Translations under genes and position numbers: made by a program
IMG/VR virus record: IMGVR_UViG_3300027782_000466
Coordinates: 1 to 20,002 of that record
Reading direction: 5' to 3' (one strand)
Length of the DNA stretch: 20,002 nt
Origin: a virus
The notes under the pieces: generated by a model
Seen by the model: only the letters and a program-made list of their open reading frames with translations
Databases searched by the model: none
What the model was told of the DNA's origin: nothing
Shown here: one piece after another, positions 2,112-20,002 of the stretch
Layout: each line of letters opens with the position of its first letter
Position numbering within the stretch: the first letter of the stretch is position 1

Positions 2112-3237
2112 TTACTTGATTGATACTTGTATTAGCAGGAGATTCTACGGTAACATCAACTTTAGAATACAAGTCTAAGAATGCCGTTTTAGTTTCTTCA
2201 TCAAAACGGTTAACACATAATGTAATGGCTTTCATTTTATCACCAAAGATTTTGAAAGCCTGTGCAATGTGTACCAAACGGCGAGTGGAGATAATCTCAT
2301 CTGTTGCGCCTTGGCTAAAAGATTGCCGAACTACATCAGCCCATTGTACCAAATTCTCAACGAATACTTGGTCATCAATTAACGGAGAAAGGATTTTCTT
2401 CTCTGTTTTAGCATCAGGATAATTCTGTTCAACAGTAATAGGAAACCGTTCTAGGAACGCATCATCTAAAATCTGTGATAGATATCTACCCTCATCACTA
2501 CCACGACCTTTGGTGTTTGCTGTACATACAACATTAAAACCTTTAGCTGGATATACCATTTCACCAGTTTTCTTATTGTAGTATGGTTTACCTTCTAATA
2601 TGCCTTGTAAACATAATAGTTTATTGGAACCACGGTCAACTTCGTCAATCAGTAATACTGTACCACGCTTCATAGCGGTGATTACGGGGCCATCATGGTA
2701 AACTGTATTACCATTAATCAAAGCAAAGCCACCAAGTAAATCGGATTCATCAGTTTCAATACTGATATTAACACGGACACATTCACGGTCTAATTCAGAA
2801 CAAACTTGCTCAACCATCAATGTTTTACCATTACCTGATAAACCAGTAATGAAGATAGGATAGAACATTTTTGTTTTTAGAATGTTACGCAAATCTTTGA
2901 AAAAGCCAAAAGGAACATAATCAGGATACTTAGCAGGAACAGAAGGCTCATTATCATCAACCATTTTAGGTTGTCGTAATTGCACAACATTTTGATATGC
3001 TACTTCCATTTCAGGTTCTTCCTGTTTAATTGATTCCTTTTTTGCAATTGTTTTACCAGATGATGGCACTTTGTAATATCCTCTACCATGGCGAAATTCT
3101 GATTTGGTTACTAACCAATAAGGATAAGGTGCGCCAGATTCACTTACCACTTCAGCAATACCGTCTCTAGTTACAACGGCATTATTGCCAAATATTCTTT
3201 CACAAGCCTCAACGAAAGACAGAGCATTTTTATTCAT
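2101..3237 (-). CDS. cobS: MoxR/CobS-like AAA+ ATPase
   Basis: 378 aa starting at the ATG at 3237. AGGA 8 nt upstream and the position of promoter P2 favour this start over an in-frame TTG at 3255, which would lie only about 4 nt from the predicted transcription start. Seen: Walker A GLSGNGKT at about 132-139, Walker B LLIDEVD at about 195-201, sensor-1 TAN at about 239-241, and the arginine-finger region DDAFLERFP at about 258-266. An N-terminal domain of about 100 residues precedes the ATPase core. Known: proteins of this type are annotated cobS in T4-like marine phages and belong to the MoxR clade, which works with VWA proteins. The VWA partner follows two genes downstream. Cobalt-chelatase activity is not implied by the sequence alone. 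Confidence 0.88.
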   Translation of the reverse strand: MNKNALSFVEACERIFGNNAVVTRDGIAEVVSESGAPYPYWLVTKSEFRHGRGYYKVPSSGKTIAKKESIKQEEPEMEVAYQNVVQLRQPKMVDDNEPSVPAKYPDYVPFGFFKDLRNILKTKMFYPIFITGLSGNGKTLMVEQVCSELDRECVRVNISIETDESDLLGGFALINGNTVYHDGPVITAMKRGTVLLIDEVDRGSNKLLCLQGILEGKPYYNKKTGEMVYPAKGFNVVCTANTKGRGSDEGRYLSQILDDAFLERFPITVEQNYPDAKTEKKILSPLIDDQVFVENLVQWADVVRQSFSQGATDEIISTRRLVHIAQAFKIFGDKMKAITLCVNRFDEETKTAFLDLYSKVDVTVESPANTSINQVNVP

Positions 3238-3265
3238 AATATAGTTCCTAATCAAGTAAAATAAT

Positions 3266-5267: not shown

Positions 5268-6112
5268 TAAAACTCCTCTATTACTTCCATTAAGTTCTTC
5301 AGTTTATGTTCAATAAAATAATTCAACAATTTACCTTTTGCTGGTTTTGTTTCTTCATAGGTATTTATAATTTTTTCTTTAATCTCTGCTGGGATTTTTG
5401 TTAGGTCAATTAATGTGCAATTTCTAGCAAAATTGGTTTTATCAGTTTCATTGTATAATTCCACATTTTCCCATAGATACTTATCTAATATTACTTTAGT
5501 AATTGGCTTCTGCCTCAAGTCACGGACAAAACAATCTGATGGTGAAAACATATTGGGTATGCCGTCACCTTTATCACCACGGATAATCTTCTCCTTGAGT
5601 TCTAGGATTGGATTCTCCGACTTTACATACTTCTTTTGTGATGGATTGTATTGCTTAACATTGGTACCATATTGTTGTAACTGTAGGAAGTCACCATCAC
5701 TTGATAGAATCAAAATCTTCTGGTCACGAGCATAGATTGGTACTAATGTGCCAATAATATCATCAGCTTCAGCACCTTCAACATCAATTACTTTATATGG
5801 GAAGTTTTCTTTAAGTTCTAATTTGAATTTGGCTAGCATATCAAAAATAAAATGCCAATCTAAATCGGATTTTTCTCTGGTCTTTTTACGACTTGCTTTG
5901 TAGAATGGAAAAAACTCTTTGCGCCAATATTTTCTATTATCACAGCATAATATTACTTCTCCATATTCACCTTTGAAATTCTTAACATGATTACGAATAA
6001 TATTCAATACCATATGCCGAACTAAAGGTTCTTCTAATTTGGTATTTTTCTGTGCTGAGATTTGTGCCATAAGTCCGGCAAGTAACACTTGGTTTAAGTC
6101 TACGAGTAACAT
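5267..6112 (-). CDS. rnh: T4 RNase H-type 5'-3' exonuclease (FEN family)
   Basis: 281 aa (T4 RNase H is about 305). The acidic metal-binding residues of the FEN/T5-exonuclease family are visible in order: D5 (LLVDLNQ), D58 (CCDNRKYWR), E112/E115/D117/D118 (VEGAEADDIIG), D139/D141 (SSDGDFLQL) and D180/D183 (RGDKGDGIPN). In T4 this enzyme removes RNA primers and adjacent DNA from lagging-strand fragments. It is the first gene after promoter P4 and is followed without a gap by the DUF6433-like gene. The Shine-Dalgarno is weak (GAAAG about 8 nt upstream). Confident in the family; substrate range is inferred from T4. Confidence 0.93.
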   Translation of the reverse strand: MLLVDLNQVLLAGLMAQISAQKNTKLEEPLVRHMVLNIIRNHVKNFKGEYGEVILCCDNRKYWRKEFFPFYKASRKKTREKSDLDWHFIFDMLAKFKLELKENFPYKVIDVEGAEADDIIGTLVPIYARDQKILILSSDGDFLQLQQYGTNVKQYNPSQKKYVKSENPILELKEKIIRGDKGDGIPNMFSPSDCFVRDLRQKPITKVILDKYLWENVELYNETDKTNFARNCTLIDLTKIPAEIKEKIINTYEETKPAKGKLLNYFIEHKLKNLMEVIEEF

Positions 6113-8790: not shown

Positions 8791-10581
8791 TCATCCTTCA
8801 CAGGCAATACAATCGTTACCTTGAGCAATCTGCGTCATATCTAGCTCTTTGATAACTTGTCTTTCAATCTTCTTAGAGACTTTATCGGCCTTACCAATCT
8901 TTTCAGAACGGCAGTAGTATAAAGTTTTAAGTCCCTTTTTCCATGCGGTAAAATGTATGGCATGGACATACTTAATATTGGCGTCAGGTCTAAAGAATAG
9001 ATTTAATGATTGTGCTTGGTCTATATATTGTTGTCTGTCGGAAGCTAACTCAACCACCCATCTTTGGTCAATCTCCATTGATGTTTTAAACACAGCCTTA
9101 TCATTCTCAGACATCCAATCTAAATGTTGAACCGAACCATCATTGGCGATAATGGATGACCAAACATCATTATACCAGTCGGCTGATTTTTCACTTGAAG
9201 CTTTAATTATCAATTCGTCTAACCATCGGTTCTTATTTAAAAATGCTCCCGATAAAGTGTCCTGCCTGTAAGCATTAGCACGATAAGGCTCAATACTAGG
9301 GCTAGTATTTCCCATGATGATAGACGAAGAAGCATTTGGAGCAATAGCCATAAGATGACTGAAACGCTTACCAGTCCCGCTAGCATCAGGAGCTTCACCT
9401 CGTTCTGTTCCCAATATTTGATTAGCTTCATTCAATCCCTCTCTAATAGATTTAAAAATACGATTATTTGTTACCTTGGCCATAACACCTTCAAAAGCAA
9501 TACCGTTGCGCTGAAGGTAAGCGTGGAATCCAAGAGCACCGATGCCAATAGAGCGTTCTCTCTCGGCACTATATCTTGCACGAGCAATAGTGTCTGGTGC
9601 ATTAGCAATAAAATAACTAAGGACATTATCAAGCATTTCGGCAACGTCTTTGAGAAATAATGGTTCATCTTTCCATTCATCATACGTTTCTAAGTTTAAA
9701 CTTGATAAACAGCATACAGCAGTTCTCTGTTCATTTGTCGGTAAAATAATTTCAGAACAAAGATTAGATTGGTGTACTTTCAATCCTTTATCTTTTAACC
9801 ATTGTGGCAATTCACGATTACTTGTATCAATGAAATGTAGATATGGTTCACCCGTCATCATACGGAGTTCCAATATCATTTGCCATAGATGTTTGGCTGA
9901 TACAGTCTCTCTGATTTCACCAGAATGTGGATCTTTTAAAACCCAATCATCATTGGCTTCAGGATCCAACATACAATTTTCAATGATGGTCATAAAGTCA
10001 TCGGTGATGTTAATACCGTGATGTAGATTTTGGCAACGCTGATTTGGATCGCCTGTTGGCTTTCTCATTTCAAGGAATGGAATTATATCAGGATGACTAA
10101 TATCAAGATATGCAGCATAAGAACCACGGCGAGTACGGCCTTGACGATAAGCTAAAGAACTTGCATCATACATTTTAAGGTGCGGCATAACTCCAGTAGA
10201 TTTATCATCGGCTGAACGAATTCCGAATCCGATGCCTACTCCGCCTCCTAACATCGACAACCAATTTGTTTCTGAAAGATTCTCGACTAGACCTTCCGCA
10301 GTATCTTCAATATAATTAAGGAAACATGATATAGGCATACCACGTTTAGAGCGACCAAAAGAAAGAATGGGAGTGCTATAAGATAGCCAATGCTTACTAG
10401 AATATTCATACAACCTCTGAGCGTGTTCGGTGTTTGAGCCGAATGATTTTGAAACGAAAGCAAACCGATGTTGTGGACTCTCCTCATCATCTTTCATGTA
10501 GCTTTCTCTAAGTCTTTTGATGCCAAGTTCGTCAAATAAAGAATCTCTTTGTAAATCAATGTTGATGCCTAGGTATTCCAT
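8791..10581 (-). CDS. nrdA: ribonucleotide reductase class I large subunit, no ATP-cone
   Basis: 596 aa (E. coli NrdA is 761). Active-site residues are visible: C86 (ISCFLN), N273/C275/E277 (SNLCSE) and C290 (AVCCLSS). The radical-transfer tyrosine pair lies in KTLYYCRS and the C-terminal redox pair is C591/C594 (DCIACEG). The protein starts about where the catalytic domain begins, so the N-terminal ATP-cone that binds dATP and shuts E. coli NrdA off is absent; the shortened length agrees. Start ATG at 10581 has AAGG about 8-9 nt upstream. The stop abuts iscU, giving the order nrdA-iscU-erpA-nrdB. It supplies deoxyribonucleotides during infection. Confidence 0.96.
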   Translation of the reverse strand: MEYLGINIDLQRDSLFDELGIKRLRESYMKDDEESPQHRFAFVSKSFGSNTEHAQRLYEYSSKHWLSYSTPILSFGRSKRGMPISCFLNYIEDTAEGLVENLSETNWLSMLGGGVGIGFGIRSADDKSTGVMPHLKMYDASSLAYRQGRTRRGSYAAYLDISHPDIIPFLEMRKPTGDPNQRCQNLHHGINITDDFMTIIENCMLDPEANDDWVLKDPHSGEIRETVSAKHLWQMILELRMMTGEPYLHFIDTSNRELPQWLKDKGLKVHQSNLCSEIILPTNEQRTAVCCLSSLNLETYDEWKDEPLFLKDVAEMLDNVLSYFIANAPDTIARARYSAERERSIGIGALGFHAYLQRNGIAFEGVMAKVTNNRIFKSIREGLNEANQILGTERGEAPDASGTGKRFSHLMAIAPNASSSIIMGNTSPSIEPYRANAYRQDTLSGAFLNKNRWLDELIIKASSEKSADWYNDVWSSIIANDGSVQHLDWMSENDKAVFKTSMEIDQRWVVELASDRQQYIDQAQSLNLFFRPDANIKYVHAIHFTAWKKGLKTLYYCRSEKIGKADKVSKKIERQVIKELDMTQIAQGNDCIACEG

Positions 10582-14274: not shown

Positions 14275-14457
14275 TTATTGAGTGGGTTTACGTTTAGCCA
14301 TCGTAATTAATACTGGACCCTTTTTCTTTTTGAGATTAACACCTGGTTCTCCGCCACGACCACCTGTACCAGCAATTGCACCAGAACTTTGAACATTGGT
14401 GGGACCAGCAGACATAGCGATACCATCTTCATTAATAAATTGTTTAAAGGTTTTCAT
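14275..14457 (-). CDS. 60-aa peptide with T4-like capsid-targeting N-terminus
   Basis: Its ATG overlaps the preceding stop (ATGA). The N-terminus MKTFKQFINEDG closely resembles the capsid-targeting peptide of T4 internal proteins (MKTYQEFIAE), which the prohead protease removes after Glu10. Here I8-N9-E10 gives the same [IL]-x-E pattern. The rest is glycine-rich (SSGAIAGTGGRGGEPG) and ends in a basic tail (KKKKGPVLITMAKRKPTQ) that could bind DNA. I infer a small packaged internal peptide or capsid decoration protein. Start and size are supported by the tight overlap and by the conserved look of the N-terminus. Confidence 0.75.
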   Translation of the reverse strand: MKTFKQFINEDGIAMSAGPTNVQSSGAIAGTGGRGGEPGVNLKKKKGPVLITMAKRKPTQ

Positions 14458-14840
14458 ATTTTTAATAGTATCTCTGTAACTTTGGGATCCATCGGTATAT
14501 CATAAACTGATATATTCTTACCTTTGATACCATAAACAATTTCTGGCATTATCTGTAAATAACACAAAAAAGTCTTTAATATGTCATAATCTCGCTCATC
14601 AATTCTATAAAATAATATTCTTGATGTTGCTTCTGGACCAAAAACATTATTTAATAGAATAAGATGATTTAATATTAAGCGTTCTTTAAGAGATTTAGTA
14701 ATTTTATATCTGCGAAATAATCTCTTTAAGTATTTGGTTCTTTTGATATCACTTTCAAATTCTGACATAATACAGTTTGTAGATGAATAACATTTCATCG
14801 CATATATCGTAAAATTTTCATCATTTAAATCATCAAACAT
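14454..14840 (-). CDS. conserved T4-like phage protein of unknown function
   Basis: 128 aa. It begins MFDDLNDENFTIYAMKCY and continues with a basic helix (KRTKYLKRLFRRYKITKSLK) and ERLILNHLILLNNVFGPEAT then SRILFYRIDERD. It ends with LKTFLCYLQIMPE and IPMDPKVTEILLKI. I recall this succession in many T4-like marine phages as a conserved unknown, commonly near structural genes, but I cannot name a function. It is the first gene downstream of the intrinsic terminator at 14862-14881, yet no strong promoter is seen before it. It may depend on read-through. Shine-Dalgarno weak (GAAAG). Confidence 0.82.
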   Translation of the reverse strand: MFDDLNDENFTIYAMKCYSSTNCIMSEFESDIKRTKYLKRLFRRYKITKSLKERLILNHLILLNNVFGPEATSRILFYRIDERDYDILKTFLCYLQIMPEIVYGIKGKNISVYDIPMDPKVTEILLKI

Positions 14841-15583: not shown

Positions 15584-18151
15584 TTAATTATTAGGTGCTT
15601 TTTTCATATTATCTTTAGTGAAGGTACTCTGGCCACCCGGACGCTGTTTCATTGACGGATCAATCTCTACCATATCTCTTGGTTGACCTGTTAAGGTTGT
15701 TCCACCCTTCATTACTGCACGAGCATCAAATTTTGTATCGCTAGTATCTGCATTTTTGTCGGTCATCTTAAAATTAGGCTTTTTACCATAAGATTGTGTG
15801 GACTTATCGCCTTTTTCCCAATCCATCATATCTTCTTTCACATTATGATGTTTATATAGAGCCTTAATCATACGAGCAGATTTAGACATCTGTTTTTTAT
15901 CGACAGCCTCAGCAACACCATGTAGCTTATTAAATGCACGGTTAAGTCCAGTAGTTCTTTTATTAATAGTAGTTTTTAACTTATTTGCTTTTGTTGTAAG
16001 ATTTTGCTGGGCTCTATCTGTATTATCTTTATAAATCTCTGGACGCTTTTCAATGTCCTTTAATTCCGACTTACTATCTTTTCTTATTTCAGTTGATTTA
16101 TTCAAGTAACTTTTTAATGTGTCTTTGTTTAATTCATCCAATGTTTCTTCTTTAACATCATTGGCAAACTGTTTCTTGGTTGCTTTTACGATACCAGAGA
16201 ATCTCTTGTTACCTGTTTTGAAGTCTCCTGCTTTATCAGCAGCCGAGGCTTGTTCTCCAGCTTTCTTTTTGTAACTACCAAGAAGTTCGTTTGATAACTC
16301 ATTAACCACTTCTTCTGTACTCATACCACGCCTTTGAGAATCATGGTAATCTTTTTGTAATGTTTTTTGTTGTGGCGTTAGTTCTCTTTTAACACCTTGC
16401 ATTGGTGAATTTTGTGTTCGTATCTTACCCATGAATCGGTTGACTGATGCCGTCCTATTTTTCAAAACAACTTCTGGACTCTTTTTACTTGATGGATTAG
16501 CTTTACGTTCTTTGTCATATGTATTTACTGTATCATAATTCAATTCATCAATCTGTTCAACTTCTTCTTTTTGTGGCTGATTCTGTGTTGGTTTGTAACC
16601 CATCATACGAGAAATAGATGTTGATACATTCTTTGCTGAAACTTCTTTACCTTTTTTCTTTTTACCAACTTGAGCACCATGGAAGTCAGCTCTGCGTTTT
16701 TGGTAAAGAGATTGTACTGTATCATAGTTTAACTCATCAATTTGCTCAACTTCTTCTTTCATTTTCAATTCATCTTTTCTTTTACCAAAAGTCTTATGAA
16801 CAAGAGTATCTAATTTTTTATGAAATGAGGTTTCTTTTGTTTTTGTTATGCCAGCAGACTCTTTAACAACAGCATCATGTGGATACTTTTCAGAGAATTT
16901 GTTACCATCTCTTTGAACATGGACTGATTGACTATCAACCTTCTTTACTATTCCTTTTTTCTTACCAAAGAATTTAGAATTAACAGTAACGGAATCACCA
17001 ACTTTATGTTCTTCTTTTACTGCCAATCTATCTAAAGCACGGTTAACACCTCTCTGGCGTTTTGGTTCTAATTTAGAATACATATTACGTTGAAACCCAT
17101 GTTTCTGTTCTTGGTCATCACCAACTTTAGAAATATATCTCTCTACTTTATCTTTGGATATTTCATTGACCATTTCTTCTGTCATTTTTTCGTTTTTACT
17201 TACAAGGTAATTACCAACTGTATCAATATAATCTGTTGCTAAGGTAATCTTAGATTGCACCCACGCAGGTAACTGTTTCTCATAGTCTTTACCAATATGT
17301 GAACGAATCATGCCACAGGCACGCTCTAATTGTTCTAATTGGTTTAATACCATACTGCCTTCATCGTCCATCATATTACCCATAGCGATTGCAACATGGT
17401 TTTCACTAACAGATTTCCATCCGCCACCCATTGCTTTATATTTCTTGGATGCCCAACCGTTGGCGTAAGCTGAAGGATACACAGCAAATTTAGATTTTGC
17501 GGCTGCTTTAGCTCTAGCCCATTTTTCAGGACTAGTAGGAACATTTTTTTCTTCTATCTGTTCAACTTCTTCTGGAACACAATTTGGGACCATACGATTT
17601 CCTTTTTTCTTCATACCTTTTGCCGTGTAACCTGTCCAACAGGCTTCATTTGTTTCATCTTCATTCATTTCTTTTTCTCTTTCAGAATTACTTTTTCTTA
17701 ACGGGTGGTCTGGATTTTTATAAGGAGTTTTTCTCAATCCTTCAGAATCATAATTACCTGACTTCTTTTTAGAAATTGCTGTTGCGGCTGCAATCGCAGC
17801 TGCAGCACTTTCTGTTCTAACATTAATAGGAGCTCCACGTCTATCTGGATCTGGATCTTCTCTGCGTTTACGTCTTGCGGCTTTTGCACGACCTTCTTTA
17901 CCTATTGCATGCGCTTTAGCTTGCGGTAGACACTTTGGTTTACCTTCGCCAGGATCTCTTGCACAATCACCTTTGATGTTACCTTTGGTGTCCATGCGAA
18001 CCCATTTTTGACTAAACCATTTTCTTAAATCTTCATTTGTTTCATCTTCAGCGATACCATACTTTGCCGACCAAGGATCCATTGGATTAATTCCAAGTTT
18101 ACCTCTGGCCGGTTCAGGATTTCTTTTGATGATGTCCTTAAACTTTTTCAT
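15584..18151 (-). CDS. large modular prohead-core/virion-type protein, 855 aa
   Basis: The ATG shares a base with the upstream stop (TAATG). Domains seen: an N-terminal MKKFKDIIKR; a basic cysteine domain (about 41-100, KWFSQKWVRMD...KCLPQAKAHA...RRKRRE); a second conserved block (about 205-247, TSPEKWARAKAAAKSKF and VYPSAYANGWASKKYKAMG) resembling DUF5872; a helical region (265-318); and a KOW/SH3-like segment (382-430, VGDSVTVNSKFFGKKKG). Then come helical modules starting with EE-x-[VL]-x-E motifs at about 325, 467, 530, 613 and 669, most ending in an R-x-x-x-[VIL]-N-R-like segment. Extremely Lys/Glu-rich, with no transmembrane helix. Proteins of this style occur near T4-like head genes. 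Recurrent [ILV]-x-E motifs suggest prohead-protease cleavage. Function is inferred. Confidence 0.82.
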   Translation of the reverse strand: MKKFKDIIKRNPEPARGKLGINPMDPWSAKYGIAEDETNEDLRKWFSQKWVRMDTKGNIKGDCARDPGEGKPKCLPQAKAHAIGKEGRAKAARRKRREDPDPDRRGAPINVRTESAAAAIAAATAISKKKSGNYDSEGLRKTPYKNPDHPLRKSNSEREKEMNEDETNEACWTGYTAKGMKKKGNRMVPNCVPEEVEQIEEKNVPTSPEKWARAKAAAKSKFAVYPSAYANGWASKKYKAMGGGWKSVSENHVAIAMGNMMDDEGSMVLNQLEQLERACGMIRSHIGKDYEKQLPAWVQSKITLATDYIDTVGNYLVSKNEKMTEEMVNEISKDKVERYISKVGDDQEQKHGFQRNMYSKLEPKRQRGVNRALDRLAVKEEHKVGDSVTVNSKFFGKKKGIVKKVDSQSVHVQRDGNKFSEKYPHDAVVKESAGITKTKETSFHKKLDTLVHKTFGKRKDELKMKEEVEQIDELNYDTVQSLYQKRRADFHGAQVGKKKKGKEVSAKNVSTSISRMMGYKPTQNQPQKEEVEQIDELNYDTVNTYDKERKANPSSKKSPEVVLKNRTASVNRFMGKIRTQNSPMQGVKRELTPQQKTLQKDYHDSQRRGMSTEEVVNELSNELLGSYKKKAGEQASAADKAGDFKTGNKRFSGIVKATKKQFANDVKEETLDELNKDTLKSYLNKSTEIRKDSKSELKDIEKRPEIYKDNTDRAQQNLTTKANKLKTTINKRTTGLNRAFNKLHGVAEAVDKKQMSKSARMIKALYKHHNVKEDMMDWEKGDKSTQSYGKKPNFKMTDKNADTSDTKFDARAVMKGGTTLTGQPRDMVEIDPSMKQRPGGQSTFTKDNMKKAPNN
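16526..16570 (-). repeat. 45-bp repeat encoding EEVEQIDELNYDTV, copy 2
   Basis: Near-identical (about 40 of 45 bases) to the stretch at 16715-16759. Both copies encode the same 15 residues, KEEVEQIDELNYDTV, at the head of adjacent modules of the 855-aa protein. The differences are synonymous, so the protein motif is under selection. Confidence 0.85.
16715..16759 (-). repeat. 45-bp repeat encoding EEVEQIDELNYDTV, copy 1
   Basis: Partner of the repeat at 16526-16570, 189 bp away (63 codons, in frame). It marks duplication of a module within the gene. Confidence 0.85.
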
Positions 18152-20002
18152 TATTTAATTTTAGTTTTGTCTTGCACAGACTTCAATGCTGCTCTAGCTA
18201 AATTTCTAGCACGGGACATTGGTGTATGTACAGCACCAGATTTATCTTTTACATTTTTTTTAGTTTTTATATATGGTCCATCAAAAGGCATTTCATTTGA
18301 TTCTCTAGTTACAATTAAAGAGTTTAGATGGTCTGCTTTCCATTTTTTGAATTCATTGGATTTTGCATGACCAACTCTAGTATTTCTATCAACATACTTA
18401 GGATTGATACCTCTAGATAGTAAATATTTCATCAAATATCTATCTTCATCTAATGATTCAACCTCTTCATTGGTTTCTTTTTTACCAGCCAAGAAACTTT
18501 TGAAATTCTTAAAATCACTCTTTACTGTACCAACAACACCTTTTTTAGCAGGTTCTAGATTTTGTTTGGCAACATCATCCATCTTTTTTGGTGCAGCTTC
18601 ATCAATACCACTTCCATGAAACTTATCAGCAATATGCATGGCTATTTTTTCATGGTTTTCTTTTGGTTCGTTGGTACTTTTCAAATATTTCAAAGCTGAC
18701 TTGTGAATTTTATCATCATCACCGGCGTCATGATGATTTGGAGCGGAGTCGGAAGTTGTCCATTTATCGTAATGATGGTCAATTTCTGATTTTGAAACTT
18801 CATTCAATTCAAAGCCATTCAATTCAAAACTATTGTCTAAACGAGTTTTGGTAACACGCTCTTTATGAAATCTATGAGCAATAGCCCATGCTAGGTCTCC
18901 AAAGTGAGTGCCTGAACCGAAACGACTATGTGTAGTAGGGTTTGGTTCTTTGACAGTTTTCATATATTTCACAGCTGCTTTATGAATTGCGTGCAAGTCG
19001 CCTCCGATTTGAGGATTTTCATCAGTTGCTCTATCATTATCATTTGGAGCGTGTTCTGATTTTTTCCAAGCAGCAAGATGACGGTCTTCCTCTGATTTTT
19101 TTGAATCAAAATGAGCAGCGATATCAGCCGACGAAGGTGCGCCAACTGGAACTCCACGCCTATTTGGTGACCGCGGGATTTTCACTTCATCCAATTCAAC
19201 TTCTTCATTTTGTTTGGCATAATAAGCACCAAGAGCCATCTTCTGACGTTCTTTTGTGGACTTACCAGCAAACTTAGGATTTTTTGAATGAACAAAATCG
19301 TGAATCCAATCACCAGCAGTTGCATCTTTCTTCATTACTTCATTGATTGCTTTTTGGATTTCTTCAGATTCAACCAATGAATTGAGTAACTTACCAGCAA
19401 AAGTATCTTCTTTTACTTTCTTTCTACCACGGAGTAATTGAAAATCATGTGCATCAATTTTGTTATTTTTGTTGGCATCAATCTTATGCTGGTCGCCTTT
19501 CAATTCTTCTTTGCGTAACATTTTGAAATCTTCAGCATCAATTTTGTTATTTTTATTTTTATCAATCTTGTGCTGATTGCCTTTTAGTTCTTCCTTAACT
19601 TCAGTTTCTTCATTCTTAGGTTTATTTAAAGAAGATAGATGTTTATCTAAATCATCAGCTTGGCCGTGAGCAATTAATTGTCCTTTACCACCCTTAAAGT
19701 CTGATTCTGGTTTATGTTGCCATTCACCATAACGATTCATAGCTATGTGACCATGTTTTGGATGAGTGTATACTCTACCATAAGTTTGTTTTCTAATATG
19801 CCATCCAAGGTTTTCAGCATGAGATAGTTCTTTTTTTGTGGATGCATCATTCTTAGCTTGCAATTCTTCAACAGATTCATTCTTAGGTTGTGGTTTTGCA
19901 CCAAGTTGTCTTGAAGTAGGCACAGCATCATACTTGGGTCGTTTTTTTGAATCAGGCATCGCATCATACGAATGTGTTCTTTTAGGTTTATTAGAAAATT
20001 CC
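18151..20002 (-). CDS. large modular charged protein with EF-hand-like repeats (5' end cut by window)
   Basis: Open through the right edge: the codons before the ATG at 19957-19959 continue without a stop (KPKRTHSYDA, then MPDSKKRPKYDA), and that ATG has no Shine-Dalgarno. The true start therefore lies outside. From the ATG, seen in order: a domain with HAENLGWHIRKQTYGRVYTH and GEWQHKPESDFKGGKGQL (about 47-110); two 28-aa repeats with EF-hand-like loops (about 120-177); DWIHDFVHSKNPKFAGKSTKE and QKMALGAYYAKQ (about 216-249). Two diverged His-rich blocks follow (HKAAVKYMKT...AIAHRFH and HKSALKYLKS...HIADKFH, about 290-455), then a basic C-terminus. The same EE-x-x-x-[DE]E junctions as in the next gene recur. 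Probably a virion or prohead-core protein; function unproven. Confidence 0.82.
   Translation of the reverse strand, partial: EFSNKPKRTHSYDAMPDSKKRPKYDAVPTSRQLGAKPQPKNESVEELQAKNDASTKKELSHAENLGWHIRKQTYGRVYTHPKHGHIAMNRYGEWQHKPESDFKGGKGQLIAHGQADDLDKHLSSLNKPKNEETEVKEELKGNQHKIDKNKNNKIDAEDFKMLRKEELKGDQHKIDANKNNKIDAHDFQLLRGRKKVKEDTFAGKLLNSLVESEEIQKAINEVMKKDATAGDWIHDFVHSKNPKFAGKSTKERQKMALGAYYAKQNEEVELDEVKIPRSPNRRGVPVGAPSSADIAAHFDSKKSEEDRHLAAWKKSEHAPNDNDRATDENPQIGGDLHAIHKAAVKYMKTVKEPNPTTHSRFGSGTHFGDLAWAIAHRFHKERVTKTRLDNSFELNGFELNEVSKSEIDHHYDKWTTSDSAPNHHDAGDDDKIHKSALKYLKSTNEPKENHEKIAMHIADKFHGSGIDEAAPKKMDDVAKQNLEPAKKGVVGTVKSDFKNFKSFLAGKKETNEEVESLDEDRYLMKYLLSRGINPKYVDRNTRVGHAKSNEFKKWKADHLNSLIVTRESNEMPFDGPYIKTKKNVKDKSGAVHTPMSRARNLARAALKSVQDKTKIK
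19436..19603 (-). repeat. tandem 84-bp repeat, two copies, EF-hand-like
   Basis: Two adjacent 84-bp units encode 28-residue repeats of the form KEELKG-x-QHKID-x-NKNNKIDA-x-DF-x-x-LR. Each contains a D-x-N-x-N-N-x-I-D-x-x-D loop, close to the calcium-binding EF-hand/dockerin loop pattern. The unit boundaries are approximate. Confidence 0.85.

Follow-up and report, generated by a model that had tools for sequence, protein, structure and literature searches.

At one end of a viral DNA stretch of 20,002 nucleotides (IMG/VR record IMGVR_UViG_3300027782_000466, positions 1 to 20,002; hereafter the window), two neighbouring genes encode large modular proteins, one of 855 amino acids (aa) and one read as 602 aa from its first ATG. 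Comparison with related sequences lends good support to both being modular proteins of a T4-like virus that are associated with the head, and we assign a probability of about 0.7 to the reading that they are head-packaged cargo polyproteins, cut by the prohead protease at the linkers between their modules. Cutting of the linkers by a gp21-type protease is the best explanation of where its motif occurs in these proteins and where it is missing; targeting by the leader, cleavage, ejection and a host-directed function of the modules are the steps that we infer for them.

The prohead protease motif is concentrated between modules

The T4 protease gp21 cuts after the Glu of L/I-X-E (PMC9026906). 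A first-pass annotation of the window had proposed that the junctions between modules fit this rule, and this was borne out by the motif being concentrated between the modules and largely absent inside them. The total number of [IL]xE motifs was at chance level (5 vs 5.2 expected in the 855-aa protein, 6 vs 4.75 expected in the 602-aa protein), so the bare count, above chance in neither, was rejected as evidence; only the placement is unusual, all five L/I-x-E sites of the former and all six of the latter lying at module edges.

Relatives were gathered by four scans of viral contigs (27, 80, 21 and 22 loci, partly shared), three of which used a peptide pattern including part of the linker while the fourth did not, so that the linker frequency among relatives is biased upwards. 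From 156 sources, which also took in stretches of S-CREM2 and S-SZBM1, 2323 open reading frames (ORFs) were obtained, 1850 of them unique. Grouping at 70% identity gave 1130 clusters, of which 189 matched one or more of 15 module profiles and 115 combined at least two module types. Between the modules of the relatives 92 [IL]xE motifs were counted vs 53.1 expected (z 7.2), and inside the modules 42 vs 71.6 expected, with 12 of the 15 families having none; the 42 fell into module D (31), the NMNAT module (6) and the tail module S (5). Other, unrelated proteins of the same loci carried the motif at 1.27 times expectation.

Moreover, the motif stands in a fixed register before two of the modules. 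Preceding module C, the Glu is kept in 24 of 25 copies and I/L three residues ahead of the cut in 22 of 25; preceding module E, Glu is kept in 75 and I/L/V in 76 of 79 copies, and the intervening residue varies. Within the neighbourhood from −12 to +2 of module starts, where [ILV]xE is expected by chance at about 21%, it was found for C (23/25), E (76/79), G (27/28), H (16/17), J (38/38), K (7/7), M (6/7), R (2/3), N (31/39), B (22/28), D (22/32), F (45/65) and A (14/21); these counts are not independent trials, because copies of one module share descent. A test on homology boundaries also gave an excess of nearby [ILV]xE (1174 of 2650 vs 696 expected), to which little weight is given because the control [KR].E was raised too (841 vs 475); the other controls were [AGST].E (836 vs 700), [ILV].K (905 vs 788) and [ILV].D (426 vs 470).

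Capsid-targeting start peptides on related genes

In T4 internal protein IPIII, residues 4 and 7 serve targeting and residues 8 and 10 processing, and Asp10 blocks processing (PMC9026906). The corresponding format M-x-x-[FY]-x-x-[hydrophobic]-[hydrophobic]-x-E, read on every 5'-closed ORF, was present in 66 of 1073 ORF clusters (500 shuffles: mean 0.59, maximum 4), and at 6.2% of starts vs 0.31% of internal Met. Position 10 was Glu in 66 clusters, Asp in 1, Lys in 1 and Gln in 0, and with the Glu shifted to position 9, 11 or 12 the format was found in 15, 13 and 9 clusters. A module was present in 37 of the 66 start-peptide clusters, 19 of these with an NMNAT-like domain, and modules A, B and H occur both in short genes behind the start peptide and inside the mosaics. 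The T4 capsid-targeting (CTS) format with Glu10 is carried by sister genes in relatives, including the NMNAT-like and module-H genes upstream in locus L001, whose end is 99% identical to residues 1-262 of the 855-aa protein. Membership of the T4 internal-protein class is not claimed for the window proteins, because the 855-aa protein lacks Glu10; the true start of the 602-aa protein lies off the contig.

Of 120 linkers, 17% have Met where position 1 of the peptide would fall, vs a background of 3.2%, and the linker M-K-E-E-V-E-Q-I-D-E may be a start peptide turned internal by gene fusion. An internalised start codon was kept as an idea only, since Met is enriched but many linkers are without it.

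The virion-detected SAM hydrolase S-CREM2 gp6 (L164:3837-5081) opens with the T4-format targeting peptide MKDFDSFLEE, which would explain its entry into the head. Two NMNAT-like proteins of about 1000 aa (L020:7183-10371 and L016:5834-8752) have the targeting peptide first and further sequence after it, including in L020 a module-D-type stretch recognised by eye.

Homologues in virion proteomes and the protease

Homologues of the modules and linkers occur in three published cyanophage virion proteomes, in which head and tail were not separated. For S-CREM2, 52 virion proteins were detected, including ORF154 cytidylyltransferase, ORF136, ORF137 and ORF160, and its authors consider carry-over of abundant proteins into the virion sample possible (PMC10665884). 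In ORF160, modules A, B and C follow one another as in the 855-aa protein, each preceded by [IL]xE (BLAST covers the B-C part, E = 9e-8; A was recognised by eye); two of its linker ends read NLEE|KKNC and EISE|GKKD. ORF137 ends in DUF6321, which is module H. In S-SZBM1, _139 and _140 cytidylyltransferase were detected (PMC9146016), and S-SZBM1_139 carries module B. In S-SCSM1, 45 virion proteins were detected (PMC9602691), and in the homologous block its record assigns gp89, gp90, gp91 (NMNAT), gp92, gp93, gp95 and gp97 to the virion. A strict EEVE-type linker was found only twice in the six frames of these three phages (S-CREM2 scanned except for about 99.0-103.0 kb), namely in S-SCSM1 gp89 (EEVENVDE|RYKG) and gp92 (EEVELDE|RTRY). 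The cytidylyltransferase cluster T4-GC190 was detected in the proteomics of S-SM1 (PMC3037559).

The first-pass annotation had advised looking for the protease gene nearby. None was recognised in the 20 kb window fragment, but of 13 relative records two, the longest at 136 kb and 165 kb, encode a gp21-type protease (PF03420), with gp22- and gp23-like genes beside it. The presumed propeptide ends of the major capsid protein, read from the sequence in five phages, are L-N-E|V, L-F-E|A, L-T-E|A, L-T-E|A and L-A-E|A.

Architecture of the two window proteins

The features of both proteins are collected in Table 1. When the 855-aa protein was aligned with 12 relatives, leader and tail were fixed, and whole modules were gained or lost between linkers. 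A module-E profile, built with the window proteins excluded and searched with the search space fixed at 1000, found three copies in it (338-376, 619-660 and 674-743; sequence E = 4.7e-10), and the E-type copies at 474-520 and 537-590 were recognised by eye only. Five modules had been annotated as opening with EE-x-[VL]-x-E-[IL]: all five have EE...[IVL]-x-E within a residue, but only three fit the formula itself (residues 325, 613 and 668; 2000 shuffles: mean 0.0, maximum 1). The openers at 466 and 529 read EEVEQIDE-L, and EEVEQIEE at 194 is a further variant (three variant sites in total, shuffle maximum 1). The basic R/N/R segment said to close most modules was recognised as the KRxxG[LIV]xxAxxxL tail of module E. 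Module D of the window is without the L-P-E and L-A-E sites found in the copies of relatives.

The module order of the second protein is F, F, G, M, M, J, I, and the EE-x-x-x-DE-type junctions described for it are indeed present as EEVELDE (252) and EEVESLDE (498). The 602-aa ORF (18151-19959, minus strand) is an incomplete protein: in the frames of loci L034-L036, homology continues upstream of the first ATG and past the contig edge.

Table 1. Features of the modular-protein block in the window (residue numbers refer to the respective protein; a bar marks a predicted cut).
Feature	Position	Strand	Basis
DUF7207 gene, part of the modular-protein block	14454..14840	-	Pfam; homologues in S-SCSM1 and S-CREM2
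855-aa modular protein: leader, A-B-C-D-E-E-E-E-E, C-terminal tail S	15584..18151	-	ORF calling, profiles, alignment
Leader, residues 1-35, ending ..KYGIAE|	18047..18151	-	Alignment; conserved leader in relatives
Module A (LRKWF..KCLP..KRREDP), residues 42-111	17819..18028	-	Profile
Module B (CWxGY..VPNC), residues 170-193	17573..17644	-	Profile
Linker EEVEQIEE|, residues 194-201, predicted cut after E201	17549..17572	-	Motif and AF2 model
Module C (KNVPTSPEKW..YPSAYANGW), residues 202-246	17414..17548	-	Profile and AF2; relatives weakly DUF5872
Module D, residues 261-316	17204..17371	-	Profile
E-type repeat 1, residues 331-376, opener EEMVNE|	17024..17161	-	Profile
E-type repeat 2, residues 474-520, preceded by KMKEEVEQIDE| (E473)	16592..16732	-	By eye
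E-type repeat 3, residues 537-590, preceded by KEEVEQIDE| (E536)	16382..16543	-	By eye
E-type repeat 4, residues 619-660, preceded by EEVVNE|	16172..16297	-	Profile
E-type repeat 5, residues 674-743, preceded by EETLDE| (E673)	15923..16132	-	Profile
C-terminal tail S (SKSARMIK..TGQxRDxVEIDP), conserved, residues 755-832	15656..15889	-	Profile and alignment
Second modular protein, N-terminus lost at contig end	18151..20001	-	ORF calling; 616-aa open frame
Two EF-hand/dockerin-like modules F	19429..19587	-	Profile; below Pfam cut-offs
Module G (DWIHDFVHSKNPKF), between E207 (AINE|) and E258 (VELDE|)	19210..19320	-	Motif, AF2, profile
Two M modules (SEIDHHYDKW type); E387 (ELNE|) and E454 (GIDE|) flank the second	18613..19098	-	Motif, AF2, profile
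Module J (LLSRGINPKYVDR), directly after EEVESLDE| (E505)	18328..18432	-	Motif and profile
C-terminal module I (KDKSGAVHTPMSRARNLARAAL), without preceding L/I-x-E	18181..18252	-	Profile

In the AF2 model of the 855-aa protein, the mean predicted local distance difference test score (pLDDT) is 38 at residues 191-200, where disorder is predicted, and 85 at 201-210, rising to 96, so that the predicted fold of module C (residues 201-250, pLDDT 85-96) begins right after the predicted cut at E201. The model of the 602-aa protein has islands at 188-257, 385-450 and about 570-600; sites E258, E387 and E454 lie at island edges, and E197 and E207 within a predicted helix. Fold comparison of both models with the PDB gave no match with E ≤ 0.001, and in BFVD a single hit of 80 (A0A6J5M9Y1) reached this threshold; other matches there were short, at 41-56 alignment columns, and had weaker E. 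Pfam found nothing above cut-off in the two window proteins: modules F stayed below the cut-offs of EF-hand_5 (23.2 bits vs 25.9) and Dockerin_1 (21.9 vs 22.9), and DUF5872, matched by a relative's protein with 17.5 bits (L009; cut-off 27.5), had no match in the 855-aa protein.

In some relatives single modules have particular features. The module after the EEVELLDE linker in L027:9257-11230 (residues 121-173) matches HicA_toxin above cut-off (PF07927, E = 9.6e-10), and L005 holds a similar module. In L024:2951-4801, an intein-like insert of about 240 aa, seen by eye, splits module C (DVYP|C...N|SAYANAW), which is unusual within a supposed structural cargo module. In L001, the module-H gene is separated from the gene of the second polyprotein by a frame (2763-3239) that, by eye, resembles an HNH-type endonuclease.

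Gene block and host

The window carries a T4-like gene set, nearly all on the minus strand, including a cobS-like ATPase, nrdA/nrdB, RNase H, primase, holin and endolysin. The order modular proteins, DUF7207, holin, primase, nrdA, nrdB is in outline common to the window and S-SCSM1, and S-CREM2 has the same outline without an annotated holin. Homologues of the DUF7207 protein occupy the equivalent place in the virion-protein blocks of S-SCSM1 (E = 1e-27) and S-CREM2 (E = 4e-22), and the primase matches that of S-SCSM1 with E = 5e-89. The modular proteins resemble those of cyanophages, and for NrdA (8791-10581) the nearest relatives are an Alcaligenes phage, a faecal phage contig and pelagiphages. 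No host is claimed, because these nearest isolate relatives are mixed phages at about 55-63%; the virus may have a chimeric genome or come from a different host group. Isolate phages searched for direct homologues of the 602-aa protein and of a 209-aa protein gave no match.

Weighing the explanations

Several observations weigh against the cleavage of packaged polyproteins. Modules I (0/26) and S (3/24) mostly have no [ILV]xE before their start, and the 31 [IL]xE within 32 interiors of module D comprise conserved L-P-E and L-A-E. The isolates Syn9 (gp114), S-P4 and S-CAM22 hold the same modules with several junctions that keep the Glu without [IL] three residues ahead of the cut, such as V-A-E, Q-M-E and T-N-E, and have an internal L-N-E in module H. 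The N-terminus of the 855-aa protein has F4, I7 and I8 but Arg10, with its first I-x-E at residue 35. Only four of seven strict start-peptide genes were detected in virions (S-CREM2 3/3, S-SZBM1 0/2, S-SCSM1 1/2), both AF2 models were poor overall (mean pLDDT 55 and 52), and the late promoter TATAAAT[AG] was not enriched (8 of 184 module genes vs 53 of 855 others); a single TATAAATA stands in the window at 5362, distant from both modular ORFs.

Part of this evidence would suit modular proteins of the head or virion that stay uncut, serving in the capsid to bind DNA or as structural components, with acidic linkers that are hinges and fit a very short motif by chance. Homologues could be detected in virions without any cleavage, the motif is no more frequent overall than by chance, and Syn9, S-P4 and S-CAM22 have junctions lacking the strict [IL]xE. 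Against such hinges stand the placement of the motif, its absence inside the 12 families, and the conservation of Glu and I/L ahead of modules C and E around a varying residue; several modules are also encoded singly, following a T4-format targeting peptide whose end is this same motif. We regard such uncut proteins as rather unlikely. More improbable still is that the linkers are recombination joints for module exchange with the protease-like motif as a by-product. The modules are clearly shuffled at the linkers, and linker codons differ slightly less than random codon-usage draws (0.278 vs 0.383). Yet synonymous differences are as large among the linkers of one protein (0.275) as they are between proteins, which argues that protein sequence and not a recent DNA copy has been kept, and before module H several copies without the upstream EEVEQ still have [IL]xE. 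Exchange at the linkers can be compatible with their being cut. Non-virion host-takeover proteins, built of shuffled domains and expressed early, might be suggested by the lack of a late promoter upstream and by modules and sister genes that include HicA-like and NMNAT-like domains; the homologues in three virion proteomes, with the carry-over conceded for S-CREM2, and the detection of T4-GC190 in S-SM1 speak against them, and we hold this the least probable of the explanations.

The preferred reading thus remains that of polyproteins cut at their linkers, with a change to what was first proposed. A head-core polyprotein is consistent with the motif placement, the virion homologues and the protease in two relatives, but a cargo polyprotein fits better than a scaffold cut to peptides, because several modules are predicted to fold, relatives carry NMNAT-like or HicA-like domains in such proteins and not all fragments are basic. 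The "many small basic peptides" of the first-pass annotation would hold for the 855-aa protein, whose fragments would all be basic (pI 9.2-9.9), but not for the 602-aa protein, with fragments of net charge -5 to +14.

Proposed route and implications

The polyproteins would enter the prohead core, where a gp21-type protease would cut after the Glu of [L/I/V]-x-E in the linkers and release the modules; with L/I-x-E as the sole cut site, the pieces would measure about 50-270 residues. The released modules would remain with the DNA and then pass into the host on ejection, in the manner of Alt and the internal proteins of T4. Leader and tail stay constant, and the small modules are swapped between viruses. 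More tentatively, and with somewhat less than even confidence, these genes may belong to a cassette system of injected cargo in T4-like aquatic viruses, in which a fixed leader and tail enclose exchangeable payloads separated by internal copies of the cut site of the targeting peptide, so that one gene would yield several capsid-delivered proteins. Its payloads would comprise DNA-binding-like basic, HicA-like and EF-hand-like domains, with NMNAT-like enzymes in sister or fused proteins.

If cargo is indeed delivered in this way, many small proteins would travel as one self-cut chain, unlike the one gene per cargo of T4. With start peptide and linker as a simple rule, injected proteins could then be picked out from the thousands of genes that lack annotation in abundant T4-like marine viruses, and it would be explained why virions contain NMNAT-like proteins, SAM hydrolase and similar enzymes. 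A literature search, subscription journals not covered, returned no title or abstract opening that describes such polyproteins.

Comparison with known systems

The proteins and their sister genes resemble T4 IPI-III and Alt in the 10-residue start peptide format, with processing residues 8 and 10 (PMC9026906), in the L/I-X-E rule, in the probable packing of small cargo in the head and in the T4-type protease of relatives. T4 has one cargo per gene and one N-terminal propeptide, whereas here many modules stand in each chain, with repeated internal linkers and shuffling between viruses. With T4 gp22, gp67 and gp68 they would share the cutting of one chain many times inside the prohead by gp21 (PMC9026906). 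Unlike the T4 fragments, which mostly leave the head, the modules here are conserved, several are predicted to fold, and they are mostly motif-free inside. Cyanomyoviruses are reported to lack Alt, gp67 and gp68 (PMC2984593), an old gap that would become a testable question.

The inner-body and ejection proteins of phiKZ and SPN3US are likewise cut several times C-terminal to Glu, by gp175/gp245 (PMC9026906, PMC5694885, PMC10052503), but at S/A-X-E or A-X-E and in propeptides, and shuffled cargo modules are not described in the available parts of these papers. The NMNAT-like/cytidylyltransferase virion protein of cyanophages (T4-GC190) lies in the same gene block, was detected in virions and has the T4-format start peptide in S-CREM2 and S-SCSM1; it differs in being an enzyme, which in L020 and L016 opens the proteins of about 1000 aa.

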